Source: Candidatus Komeilibacteria bacterium RIFCSPLOWO2_01_FULL_45_10 (GTDB taxonomy: Bacteria > Patescibacteriota > Patescibacteriia > UBA1558 > UBA10009). From it: a DNA stretch of 13,122 nt. A program made the position numbers and the translations under genes. The DNA lies in the NCBI GenBank assembly GCA_001818835.1, contig MHKL01000039.1:917-14038 (forward strand), in the 5' to 3' direction. Each line of letters opens with the position of its first letter. Position 1 is the first letter of the stretch. Shown piece by piece: positions 9,980 through 12,242 of this stretch. Below the pieces are notes generated by a model, which searched no databases, had not been told where the DNA came from, and saw only the letters and a program-made list of their open reading frames with translations.

Positions 9980-11053
9980 ATGAAACTTTCAAATTTTGAT
10001 TATTATTTACCCAAAGAGCTGATTGCCCAGCAGCCGGTTAGTCCGCGCGATAGCTCACGGCTGATGGTTGTTGACCGCCGAAAAAAGAAAATTGAGCATA
10101 AGCATTTTTATGATATTTTTGATTACCTTAAAAAAGGCGATATTCTGGTTTTAAATGATACTAGAGTGTTTCCCGCTCGTTTAATTGGTCATCGTGAAAA
10201 AACAGGAGGGAGGGTAGAAGTGTTTTTATTGGCAAGAAGCAAAGAACAAAAAGCAAAAAACAAATATGAAACATGGGAGGCATTGATTGGGAATCGCAGA
10301 AAGAAAGTCGGGCAGATTATTGAGTTTGGTCGGGGGCTGGAATGTCAAATTTTAAAAAGGATTGATGAATCGGTGTGGGAAGTGAGGTTCAATAAATCAG
10401 GCCGTCAATTGGAGAAATTGATTGATAAGATGGGTAACGTTCCTACGCCACCATATGTAAAAACTAAAAACTTAAAACTAAAAACTGAAAAGTTGAAGAA
10501 TGATTATCAAACGGTTTACGCGAAACATCGTGGATCGGTGGCGGCGCCGACGGCCGGGTTTCATTTTACCAAGCCGTTAATCAATAAATTAAAAAGGAAG
10601 GGTGTGCAGTTTGCATTTATTACCCTGCACGTCGGTTTTGGAACTTTTGAGCCGGTCAAAGTTCAGGATATTTTAAAGCACAAAATGCATGCGGAAGTGG
10701 CGGTTTTGGATAAAAAAACGGCTGAAAAGTTGAATGAGGCGAAAAAGGATGGCCGGCGGATTATTGCCGTGGGAACAACGACGGTAAGAACATTAGAAAC
10801 ATTTGTTAGGCGCAGCGGAAAGCCTGGCTTTCCGCTGCGCCAGGGCAACCGCTGGACGGATATTTTTATTTATCCGGGCTATAAATTCAAATTCGTTGAT
10901 GCCATGATAACCAACTTTCATCTGCCCCAGTCAACTTTATTGATGTTAATTTCTGCTTTTGCCGGCCGTGGATTTATTCTTAAGGCCTATCAGGAAGCGA
11001 TTAAAAAGCAATACCGGTTTTATTCGTTTGGCGACTCTATGTTCATTTATTAA
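9980..11053 (+). CDS. queA: S-adenosylmethionine:tRNA ribosyltransferase-isomerase QueA
   Basis: QueA transfers and isomerises the ribosyl part of S-adenosylmethionine onto preQ1 in tRNA, producing epoxyqueuosine, the substrate of QueH next door. The 357 residues include the N-terminal FDYYLPKELIAQQP, ILVLNDTRVFPARL (55-68), VAAPTAGFHF (187-196), LHVGFGTFEPV (216-226), VGTTTVRTLE (264-273), TDIFIYPGYKF and TNFHLPQSTLLMLISAFAG. All main family motifs are intact. Three non-conserved segments are repeat-derived: residues about 86-95 and 161-172 (heptamer arrays, Lys-rich) and 277-288 (palindrome). The ATG at 9980 has no SD and is five bases from the queH stop. Preceding steps (preQ1 synthesis or uptake, Tgt) are not encoded in this window. 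Confidence 0.96.
   Translation: MKLSNFDYYLPKELIAQQPVSPRDSSRLMVVDRRKKKIEHKHFYDIFDYLKKGDILVLNDTRVFPARLIGHREKTGGRVEVFLLARSKEQKAKNKYETWEALIGNRRKKVGQIIEFGRGLECQILKRIDESVWEVRFNKSGRQLEKLIDKMGNVPTPPYVKTKNLKLKTEKLKNDYQTVYAKHRGSVAAPTAGFHFTKPLINKLKRKGVQFAFITLHVGFGTFEPVKVQDILKHKMHAEVAVLDKKTAEKLNEAKKDGRRIIAVGTTTVRTLETFVRRSGKPGFPLRQGNRWTDIFIYPGYKFKFVDAMITNFHLPQSTLLMLISAFAGRGFILKAYQEAIKKQYRFYSFGDSMFIY
10234..10261 (+). repeat. Heptamer tandem repeat inside queA (first)
   Basis: Four units, AAGAAGC, AAAGAAC, AAAAAGC and AAAAAAC, run without gaps and encode a Lys/Gln/Ala-rich loop around residues 86-94. The seven-base period is not a codon period. Confidence 0.7.
10459..10493 (+). repeat. Heptamer tandem repeat inside queA (second)
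   Basis: Five units, AAAAACT, AAAAACT, TAAAACT, AAAAACT and GAAAAGT, encode the Lys/Leu/Thr segment at about 161-171, between conserved PPYV and YQTVYA. Confidence 0.75.
10809..10841. repeat. Perfect 33-base palindrome in frame inside queA
   Basis: GGCGCAGCGGAAAGCC (10809-10824) and its exact reverse complement (10826-10841) flank one T. It encodes RRSGKPGFPLRQ (277-288), between the conserved TVRTLE and WTDIFIYPG motifs. Confidence 0.88.
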
Positions 11054-11091
11054 TTTCAAGTTTTAATTTTAAAATTTTAGGAATCATATTT

Positions 11092-11151
11092 TCCGCCACA
11101 GCCAGAGGCTGATAAGCCTATGGCTTAAGAGGCGGATTGGCCTTTGGCCAA
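11092..11151. repeat. Three-way-junction palindrome plus hairpin after queA
   Basis: The outer stem TCCGCC/GGCGGA (11092-11097, 11131-11136) encloses two perfect 5-base-pair hairpins: CAGCC/GGCTG (11099-11103, 11107-11111) and AAGCC/GGCTT (11114-11118, 11122-11126), each with a three-base loop. A further TTGGCC-TTT-GGCCAA hairpin (11137-11151) adjoins directly. It may end the queA transcript, although the tail (AGTTTTCC) is only weakly T-rich. Confidence 0.7.
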
Positions 11152-11185
11152 AGTTTTCCACATTCTTATTTCAATAGTAATTCTG

Positions 11186-11191
11186 TATAAT
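11186..11191 (+). promoter_or_regulatory. -10 box upstream of candidate RNA
   Basis: A perfect TATAAT in an AT-rich setting. The -35 position (TTCTTA, 11163-11168, 17-base spacer) is weak. Transcription should start near 11198. Confidence 0.55.
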
Positions 11192-11255
11192 TAAATTAAA
11201 CAAGAACATTTAATCAGGAGGGTTTTAGGATCCCTCTTTTTAAAGTGGAGGTTGG

Positions 11256-11384
11256 ATGCGGTATCATAACCGTCCCCATTGGTTCCACCGTTTGAGATGG
11301 TTTCAACTAAGATTGCTTCATATCCTCCCACCTTTAAAATTTCGGAGGAAGTATGTCACTAAATCTCTTTCAACCGTCAATTGA
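11256..11384 (+). CDS. Possible 42-aa basic peptide
   Basis: ATG 11256 to TGA 11382-11384, preceded by GGAGG (11247-11251) four bases before the start. The peptide is rich in Arg, His, Trp and Leu (for example PHWFHRLRWFQLRLLH) with no acidic residues, and matches no family I know. Its SD would be masked by the long-range stem 11238-11251/11324-11339. The SD favours translation, while the strong RNA structure and unusual composition argue for a non-coding RNA. Confidence 0.35.
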   Translation: MRYHNRPHWFHRLRWFQLRLLHILPPLKFRRKYVTKSLSTVN

Positions 11385-11397
11385 CCCGGTCTTTTGA
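11353..11397 (+). CDS. Possible 14-aa peptide overlapping the 42-aa ORF
   Basis: ATG 11353 to TGA 11395-11397 in the +1 frame relative to the 42-residue ORF. GGAGG (11344-11348) lies four bases upstream. It encodes MSLNLFQPSIDPVF. Its stop codon overlaps the 16-base anti-16S motif. It could be a leader peptide, but evidence is limited to the SD. Confidence 0.25.
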   Translation: MSLNLFQPSIDPVF

Positions 11398-11411
11398 AAG
11401 GAGGTGATCCA
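11396..11411 (+). promoter_or_regulatory. Extended SD complementary to the 16S rRNA 3' end
   Basis: GAAAGGAGGTGATCCA is the exact reverse complement of TGGATCACCTCCTTTC, the common bacterial 16S 3' terminus. Normal SDs use 4-8 bases. No ATG follows at a usual distance; GTG at 11405 lies inside the motif and ATC-TAG follows. Confidence 0.6.
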
Positions 11412-11437
11412 TCTAGGAGCGCCTCCTTGGTTGCTCC

Positions 11438-11469
11438 CTGCCAGGCAAACTTTGCTTGGCAGTTTTTTT
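11438..11469 (+). terminator. Strong Rho-independent terminator of the candidate RNA
   Basis: CTGCCA-G-GCAA (11438-11448) pairs with TTGC-T-TGGCAG (11452-11462), including one G-U pair, and is followed by seven T residues (11463-11469). Confidence 0.88.
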
Positions 11470-11508
11470 ACCGCCCAAAGTCAATAAACTCGGGCTCCAG
11501 TTCGGGAC

Positions 11509-11551
11509 AACCCTGAAGTGAACGAGCGATAGCGAGTTCTACTTTAGGGTT
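11509..11551 (+). repeat. CCCTGAAGT hairpin element, copy 3
   Basis: AACCCTGAAGT (11509-11519) pairs with ACTTTAGGGTT (11541-11551) through one G-U pair, with an inner GAAC/GTTC stem. An eight-T run follows after GA. The right edge supplies the first two bases of the next promoter's -35 box. Read as reverse complement it almost equals copy 2. Confidence 0.85.
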
Positions 11552-11578
11552 GATTTTTTTTGAAAAGTGTGCTATACT
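11550..11578 (+). promoter_or_regulatory. Promoter of the 73-aa membrane protein gene
   Basis: TTGATT (11550-11555), 17-base spacer, TATACT (11573-11578). Transcription should start near 11585, right before a hairpin, leaving a leader of about 138 bases. Confidence 0.75.
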
Positions 11579-11585
11579 TAACAAT

Positions 11586-11696
11586 GTAAGCTAAAATAAG
11601 CTTACAAAACAAAAACTAAAATCAAAGCAGGTTAGCTCGGCCAGGAGCCGGACGACCAGCGCGACATTCGGAATTATTTTAAGATGCTTTGATTTT
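11586..11696 (+). promoter_or_regulatory. Structured 5' leader of the 73-aa membrane protein gene
   Basis: GTAAGCT/AGCTTAC (11586-11592, 11599-11605) forms a 5' hairpin. AAAATCAAAGCA (11618-11629) then pairs perfectly with TGCTTTGATTTT (11685-11696), closing a 55-base domain. Inside it, GGT (11630-11632) with ACC (11655-11657) and CGGC (11638-11641) with GCCG (11647-11650) form an inner arm. TTTTGTTT at the 3' side resembles a terminator tail. It could be a riboswitch, an attenuator or a small RNA; no known class matches. Confidence 0.5.
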
Positions 11697-11722
11697 GTTT
11701 CAAGGCATTTTTATTTTTTAAA

Positions 11723-11944
11723 ATGACCAAAGCGATTAAAAACAGAAGAGAATTATCACCGCTCCTCACCGTCATCTTAAGCCTCGTTATTATTGCGACG
11801 GCCAGCCAATTACTGGTTTTAGCCAGGAATTCTTTTGAGGAAAATCAGATCGTTTCTGCCGAAGAGCTGACAGTTCTGCCTTTGGAAATAAATCAAAATC
11901 AAGTTAGATATCTAATTGAAGACGGCTATTTGTCTTTGCCTTAA
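11723..11944 (+). CDS. Hypothetical single-pass membrane protein (73 aa)
   Basis: The family is not recognised. A basic N-terminus (MTKAIKNRRE) precedes one membrane helix at about 14-34, and a hydrophilic, mildly acidic outer segment of about 39 residues ends in DGYLSLP. By the positive-inside rule the N-terminus should be cytoplasmic. The ATG at 11723 has no SD. A good promoter and a structured leader lie upstream. Two hairpin repeats follow the stop instead of a classical terminator. Composition and promoter support a real gene; nothing indicates function. Confidence 0.65.
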   Translation: MTKAIKNRRELSPLLTVILSLVIIATASQLLVLARNSFEENQIVSAEELTVLPLEINQNQVRYLIEDGYLSLP

Positions 11945-11960
11945 AGACAAATTTCGGGCC

Positions 11961-11998
11961 ACCCCGAAGTAGCCCGCCGTTGGCGGACACTTCAGGGT
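11961..11998. repeat. CCCTGAAGT hairpin element, copy 4 (degenerate)
   Basis: ACCCCGAAGT (11961-11970) faces ACTTCAGGGT (11989-11998) with one C-A mismatch. Inside it is a perfect CCGCC-GTT-GGCGG hairpin (11974-11986). No T-run follows. Confidence 0.7.
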
Positions 11999-12044
11999 AA
12001 AGATCGCTCTTTCAAAAAATAAAAGTGAATAACCTCGCTTGCCA

Positions 12045-12061
12045 GTCAAGCTTAGCTTGAC
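12045..12061. repeat. Short palindrome GTCAAGCT-T-AGCTTGAC
   Basis: Exact 8-base arms around one T. A related word, GTCAAGCTAAGCTTAA, occurs in the loop region near 6910, inside the nested repeat before the NIF3-like gene. Confidence 0.5.
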
Positions 12062-12082
12062 GAAAACAAAAATAAAAAGGGT

Positions 12083-12111
12083 CCCTGAAGTACAATAAAT
12101 TGACTTCAGGG
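12083..12111. repeat. CCCTGAAGT hairpin element, copy 5
   Basis: CCCTGAAGT (12083-12091) pairs with ACTTCAGGG (12103-12111) around an 11-base AT-rich loop. GTAAA follows immediately, as in copy 4, which suggests the two arose by duplication. The rest of 11945-12242 shows only A-rich low-complexity sequence. Confidence 0.8.
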
Positions 12112-12191
12112 TAAAATTAAATAGATCGGCTATCCAAAACGATCAAATTTAAAAACCAACAAAGCAGGCGAGATGATTCAAAAATAAAAAC

Positions 12192-12222
12192 AAAAACCTC
12201 AGCGTTGATTCGCGGGGTTTTT
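12192..12222 (-). terminator. Terminator after ychF
   Basis: AAAAACCTC-A-GCG (12192-12204) pairs with CGCGGGGTTTTT (12211-12222), with one bulged A. On the minus strand the hairpin is followed by GTTTTTATTTTTG. It lies about 20 bases downstream of the ychF stop and may also stop plus-strand transcription. Confidence 0.8.
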
Positions 12223-12242
12223 GTTATATTAGAATATTCATT

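Follow-up and report, generated by a model that had tools for sequence, protein, structure and literature searches.

Next to queA, the window (the whole 13,122-nt stretch that was analysed) holds a unit at 11198-11469 that we suggest is an RNA element binding the 30S subunit through the 16S rRNA tail without starting a protein. On the sequence evidence, we give this reading a probability of about 45%. The unit carries a perfect complement to the 16S 3' end of its order, and elements of this class are found mostly in viruses of bacteria. The recurrent element would consist of the 16S complement AAAGGAGGUGAUCC, a spacer of 0-5 nt, AUCU, and then structured sequence or a terminator.

The unit and its complement of the 16S tail

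The unit lies on the plus strand of a 22.7-kb contig from an assembly of 594 kb that is 72.75% complete. It is preceded by queA (Pfam Queuosine_synth) and followed by a 73-codon ORF, and it is a single copy in its own genome. To judge from the genome sizes of relatives and from the 16S end, the source is probably a candidate-phyla bacterium (Patescibacteria). A first, sequence-only reading had proposed a -10 box and a seven-T terminator at its ends. A TATAAT, a possible -10 box, can be read directly at 11186-11191 (+), but it is missing from the promoter-scan list. The terminator was listed by the scan at 11438-11469 (+), with a stem of 11 pairs (11438-11462) and the run of seven T; the scan finds two terminator-like sites in the region, compared with a mean of 1.0 in shuffles. 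The strong folding that had been claimed is borne out, with a predicted energy of -90.9 kcal/mol versus -69.5 ± 5.1 kcal/mol for shuffled sequences (z = -4.2), and none of 200 shuffles equals it. We take the unit to be a putative short transcript. A search of the unit against Rfam gave nothing at the gathering score, the best match being NsiR1 with 22.7 bits versus 39.

GGAGG occurs four times in the unit, at 11217-11221, 11247-11251, 11344-11348, and 11400-11404, all on the plus strand. The mean in 5000 dinucleotide shuffles is 0.39 (P = 0.0002), in agreement with the earlier claim of a concentration of SD-like motifs. The two CCTCC motifs also noted are present (11324-11328 and 11422-11426), although their number is unremarkable by itself (shuffle mean 0.47, P = 0.07); the joint counts were reached by none of the 5000 shuffles. 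Two of the GGAGG motifs precede putative small ORFs on the plus strand, one of 42 codons (11256-11384, GGAGG at 11247-11251) and one of 14 codons (11353-11397, GGAGG at 11344-11348), with predicted 16S pairing of -10.5 and -9.5 kcal/mol. This is stronger than for the other genes of the window, where the best pairing upstream of ten ORF starts, assigned mechanically, ranges from +0.9 to -8.4, and the weak SD pairing ascribed to those genes is thus confirmed. A Pfam search with the 42-codon ORF gave no match. The TGA of the 14-codon ORF (11395-11397) overlaps the start of the anti-16S motif.

The anti-16S motif had been described as 16 nt long, but it extends to 18 nt, 11396-11413 (+). Among 18 genomes of the order that were searched, 12 had a 16S match, and in all 12 the 16S gene ends ...GTGGATGGATCACCTCCTTTCTA, with 18 bases of which the window string pairs without a gap. 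A search of the window's own assembly gave no 16S match, so the fit of the complement to the bacterium's own ribosome is judged from the 16S ends of its relatives. The predicted duplex of motif and 16S tail has an energy of -35.9 kcal/mol, while opening the motif within the whole unit would cost 10.9 kcal/mol; these modelled values leave room for the 30S pairing that had been raised as a possibility. The motif is predicted to be hidden in a hairpin at 11398-11428 (+), where 11398-11406 pairs with 11420-11428. The inner stem of this hairpin (11398-11404/11422-11428) was checked and is perfectly complementary. It is one of the two stems named in the sequence-only reading; the other, 11238-11251/11324-11339, is also complementary, with two extra bases on the 3' side. 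The alternative intramolecular partners of the motif are the local CGCCUCCUU and, in the full-length minimum-energy fold, the distant GGAUCCCUCUUUUUAAAG. A 16S gene or an antisense fragment of one is not supported, because the antisense strand in relatives continues CATCCACAGC while the window continues CATCTAGGAG, and the likeness to 16S ends at 18 nt.

A recurrent motif in viral genomes and its possible action

The pattern AAAGGAGGTGATCC, 0-5 nt, then ATCT is present in at least 120 IMG/VR contigs, compared with 13 for a control pattern with CTTA, 6 with ACCT, and 13 with a scrambled core and ATCT, all counted as contigs that include mutual relatives, before de-duplication. The contig count is also inflated by copies embedded in ORFs; at 20 of these loci, and at more elsewhere, the ORFs look alike and have 226-239 codons. 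In L178, L182, L183, and similar loci, the motif is in frame near the 3' end of these viral ORFs, and another ORF usually follows soon after. The 19-mer GAAAGGAGGTGATCCATCT is found in 5 viral contigs, L017 and L020 among them, and GAAAGGAGGTGATCCAD in 112. When these 112 were viewed by eye, they proved to be ribosome-binding sites with a near ATG or GTG, a coding family, and copies with ATCT close behind. The motif core is identical to a universal 16S reverse primer. Contamination with primer was rejected, since the sequence beyond the core is unlike 16S and the core is also present in annotated phage records.

Near-duplicate loci were left out before the detailed counts were made. The 72 de-duplicated cases have spacings of 0, 1, 2, 3, 4, and 5 nt in 6, 18, 18, 18, 10, and 2 instances. 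Of 73 de-duplicated copies, 42 lie within ORFs according to a rough gene caller, and 31 do not. The 50 nt after ATCT in the 31 non-coding copies have a median fold z of -2.05, versus 0.02 in 22 controls without ATCT (P = 0.0002; L118 was too short and was left out), and the 50 nt upstream of the same 31 copies have a median z of -0.72. For the window, the 50 nt downstream of the motif give z = -4.9. A looser terminator test did not separate the classes (20/31 versus 13/23). All 33 records examined for repetition, 32 viral and one cellular (L137), have a single match to the shorter core followed by ATCT; they were chosen for holding the motif, and many are fragments from which variants would escape, so that this result speaks for a lack of repetition and not for conservation. 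Rfam searches of eight related loci returned tRNAs and one tmRNA, and no family at the gathering score for the motif.

When a sequence with an ATCT form was searched against 50,697 phage records, 220 gave a match at E up to 10, some over no more than 16-17 nt; 174 of the 220 are Pseudomonas phages. PaP1 and PAK_P4 have the motif in the interval from tRNA-Asp to tRNA-Cys; in the P. putida phage Kassivere, it is within a tRNA cluster. The PAK_P1 record has no annotated gene over the motif, and in Ruegeria V21 and Erwinia Y3 it is located between genes. Other records, including Ruegeria V13 and a number of Erwinia and Dickeya phages, annotate a hypothetical protein across the match, and that of Stenotrophomonas phage Summit annotates it as a ribosome-binding site. 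Among the viral contigs, L018 has the motif directly 3' of a gene with a PHROG endolysin match, and L017 has it after a 44-codon ORF, near another gene with such a match.

Chromosomal copies like that of the window exist but are rare. A spaced form was found in 3 of 380 genomes of the class, and the reversed control in none. A genome scan for ...CATCT gave 12 contigs, ten of which are by eye 16S ends, so a T after CATC does not exclude 16S. The remaining two, L137 and L140, are not 16S ends; L140 resembles an SD or coding sequence. The Saccharibacteria contig L137 carries the unspaced form GAAAGGAGGTGATCCATCTATCTA at 134-154, followed by a strong hairpin. A short way downstream is a gene with a SPOUT methyltransferase (RlmH-type) domain, and tsaD is nearby.

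Two explanations of the AUCU half were considered. AUC as a start codon was rejected because, in 41 hand-picked viral loci, the AUC frame is no longer than the other frames, the median number of codons to a stop being 14, 13, and 18 in the three frames. A role of AUCU merely as the hairpin partner of AGGU is disfavoured by the rarity of the better-pairing ACCU (6 contigs) and by the C that follows ATCT in 25 of 72 cases. The AUCU half is a specific, unexplained constraint. AUCU opens no protein and does not seem to be simply a hairpin partner. A non-initiating clamp on the 30S subunit is the favoured reading.

In the mechanism that we propose, pairing of the strand with the 16S 3' tail would hold a 30S subunit, or else a ribosome that has finished termination, on an RNA that offers no usable start codon at the clamp site. 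In the window, the competing hairpin would have to open first, so that binding would be gated. The effect may be to draw 30S subunits, to mask the anti-SD, or to protect the RNA end. The lack of repetition and the tRNA-cluster cases lean toward action in trans, and contact with a stop codon leans toward action in cis. A broader proposal is that of an undescribed RNA class that is phage-borne, occasionally cellular, and at one locus per genome. Its members would combine an extended 16S-tail complement, an obligatory AUCU, and a stem-loop, and would redirect translation by seizing 30S subunits or masking the anti-SD. We consider this proposal less likely than not. A literature search that covered few subscription journals found no description of the bipartite motif or of an anti-16S phage RNA, and the accessible part of a review on phage sRNAs does not mention 16S.

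If the clamp reading is right, a short RNA directed, independently of a start codon, against the part of the rRNA with which bacterial ribosomes choose messages is common to many phages, which would be a compact means of steering host translation. The conserved anti-SD of candidate-phyla bacteria would gain a use beyond ordinary initiation. Under the broader proposal, in a lineage with few SDs before its housekeeping genes, the RNA would be selective for SD-led messages, for example those of invading phages.

Origin of the window copy

Positions 11397-11414 of the window match AAAGGAGGTGATCC plus ATCT at spacing 0, with AUCU at 11411-11414 (+) directly after GAUCC, and the order of the parts (complement, AUCU, structure) is the viral order. 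Spacing 0 is found in only 6 of the 72 de-duplicated copies, and at this spacing three of the four AUCU letters are also part of the 16S complement. For these reasons, the membership of the window copy in the viral class, which is argued from its anatomy, falls short of proof. AGGAGGTGATCC occurs once in the incomplete 594-kb assembly. The window shares 33 nt at 94% with L017 and L020, with nothing in common beyond; these two contigs, which are alike over the stretch read, were retrieved with the motif as the criterion, so the additional identity counts as modest evidence and the E-value is meaningless. Upstream of the window motif, no sequence is in common. A BLAST search of the whole element against phage records gave seven records at E of about 3, and one with a 32-nt query gave no match.

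Conservation in relatives, on which the sequence-only reading had staked its proposal, was not observed. A blastn search of 53 genomes found the unit in its own genome, while 51 of the other 52 gave no match and the remaining one matched at the true end of its own 16S gene. By eye, the queA intervals of the relatives G002, G003, and G004 contain nothing resembling the unit. When 11041-12240 was compared by blastn with 30 queA loci, none of the first 40 matches listed covered more than 15 nt inside the unit, except for two that touch its left edge. The exact 19-mer AAAGGAGGTGATCCATCTA is present in 1 of 379 genomes of the phylum, that of the window itself. A conserved RNA beside queA was rejected on the blastn search, the 19-mer scan, and the queA intervals. 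Because the relatives searched lack the unit, the window copy was probably gained or newly formed.

The 73-codon ORF (window 11723-11944) has a clear homologue at 2 of 29 other queA loci, those of G002 and G003, where its orientation to queA is reversed. To judge from this arrangement, the spot next to the unit is rearranged, with the adjacent segment inverted in one lineage. The unit may have no function and be a young, SD-rich spacer that formed where the sequence was rearranged, and it may include a stray 16S 3' end on the minus strand. Its absence from the relatives searched, the inversion of the neighbouring ORF, and the identity of the 18 bases to the minus strand of the relatives' 16S end are all consistent with this explanation. 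However, no further 16S sequence surrounds the motif, no SSU match was found in the window, and the fold (z = -4.2), the GGAGG excess (P = 0.0002), and the anatomy in common with viral copies speak against it. We consider this explanation unlikely.

An inverted repeat, CACCACTTTT...AAAAGTGGTG, lies at 2572-2634 of the window and is also seen at L146 3421-3467 and L005 1327-1429. These two other sites are downstream of queA in G002 and close to the G005 16S gene. The window copy has a weak, chance-level mir-153 match in Rfam. The repeat is possibly a mobile hairpin of the order.

Relation to known 16S-binding elements

The STAB-SD of the Bacillus thuringiensis cry3A mRNA resembles an SD and base-pairs with the 3' end of 16S rRNA without initiation (PMC4113751), and in this it is like the element proposed here. 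The STAB-SD, which raises mRNA stability, sits near the 5' end, whereas the window motif is in the 3' part of the unit. The recurrent element also has a longer complement, is followed by AUCU and structure, and is located in tRNA clusters or where genes end. A counterpart of STAB-SD on the 3' side can nevertheless be envisioned, in which a 30S subunit held after the stop codon would shield the 3' end of the mRNA from exonucleases and so act in cis on the preceding gene. That STAB-SD binds the 30S subunit without initiating (PMC4113751) lends this some support. The motif begins no more than a few bases from a stop codon in 9 of the 31 non-coding copies (versus 3 of 23 non-ATCT controls), as with the 14-codon ORF of the window; structure or a terminator lies downstream; and the next gene is on the opposite strand in 16 of 31 copies, versus 7 of 23 controls. 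On the other hand, 22 of the 31 non-coding copies are away from a stop codon, the motif is between tRNA genes in three Pseudomonas phage records, and a general device at operon ends should recur, while each of the 33 records has one copy. We consider such a counterpart of STAB-SD distinctly unlikely.

Extended Shine-Dalgarno sequences are known at regulated starts. In Bacteroidia, that of rpsU is a real start site read by ribosomes lacking bS21 (PMC9976891), and it resembles the recurrent motif in being an unusually long 16S complement where genes are mostly without SDs; a coding start follows there, and none follows the recurrent motif. In Staphylococcus aureus, an extended SD opens genes with the non-canonical start codons AUA or AUU (PMC13009471). 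The likeness lies in extended pairing with a weak codon at start-codon distance, but the AUC of the recurrent motif opens no gene. The motif could likewise be an ordinary extended Shine-Dalgarno sequence at which translation starts, perhaps under the control of weak start codons or of the state of the ribosome, as for rpsU or infC. This is suggested by these systems, by the many non-ATCT copies that simply serve as ribosome-binding sites ahead of an ATG or GTG, and by the two SD-led small ORFs inside the unit. It is very unlikely given that, in the window, no ATG, GTG, or TTG at the right distance after the motif opens a frame that could be used (UAG comes directly after AUC), that the rough gene caller places a same-strand start within 15 nt in 1 of 31 non-coding ATCT copies versus 5 of 23 controls, and that no ORF runs from AUC in the 41 hand-picked loci.

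The non-initiating clamp that we favour can also be compared with PAK_P4sRNA1, an sRNA of Pseudomonas phage PAK_P4 annotated by RNA-seq. It is on the same strand as the phage's motif and ends 36 nt before it, so the annotated sRNA excludes the motif, and the likeness to the window is known for the motif alone. The PAK_P4 stretch from the sRNA to the tRNA folds no better than shuffles (z = -0.44). Unannotated inter-tRNA stretches with the anti-16S/AUCU motif are seen in Pseudomonas phages at L143 (PAK_P4) 1820-2056 and L283 1000-1200, and they are possibly an unclassified phage RNA.
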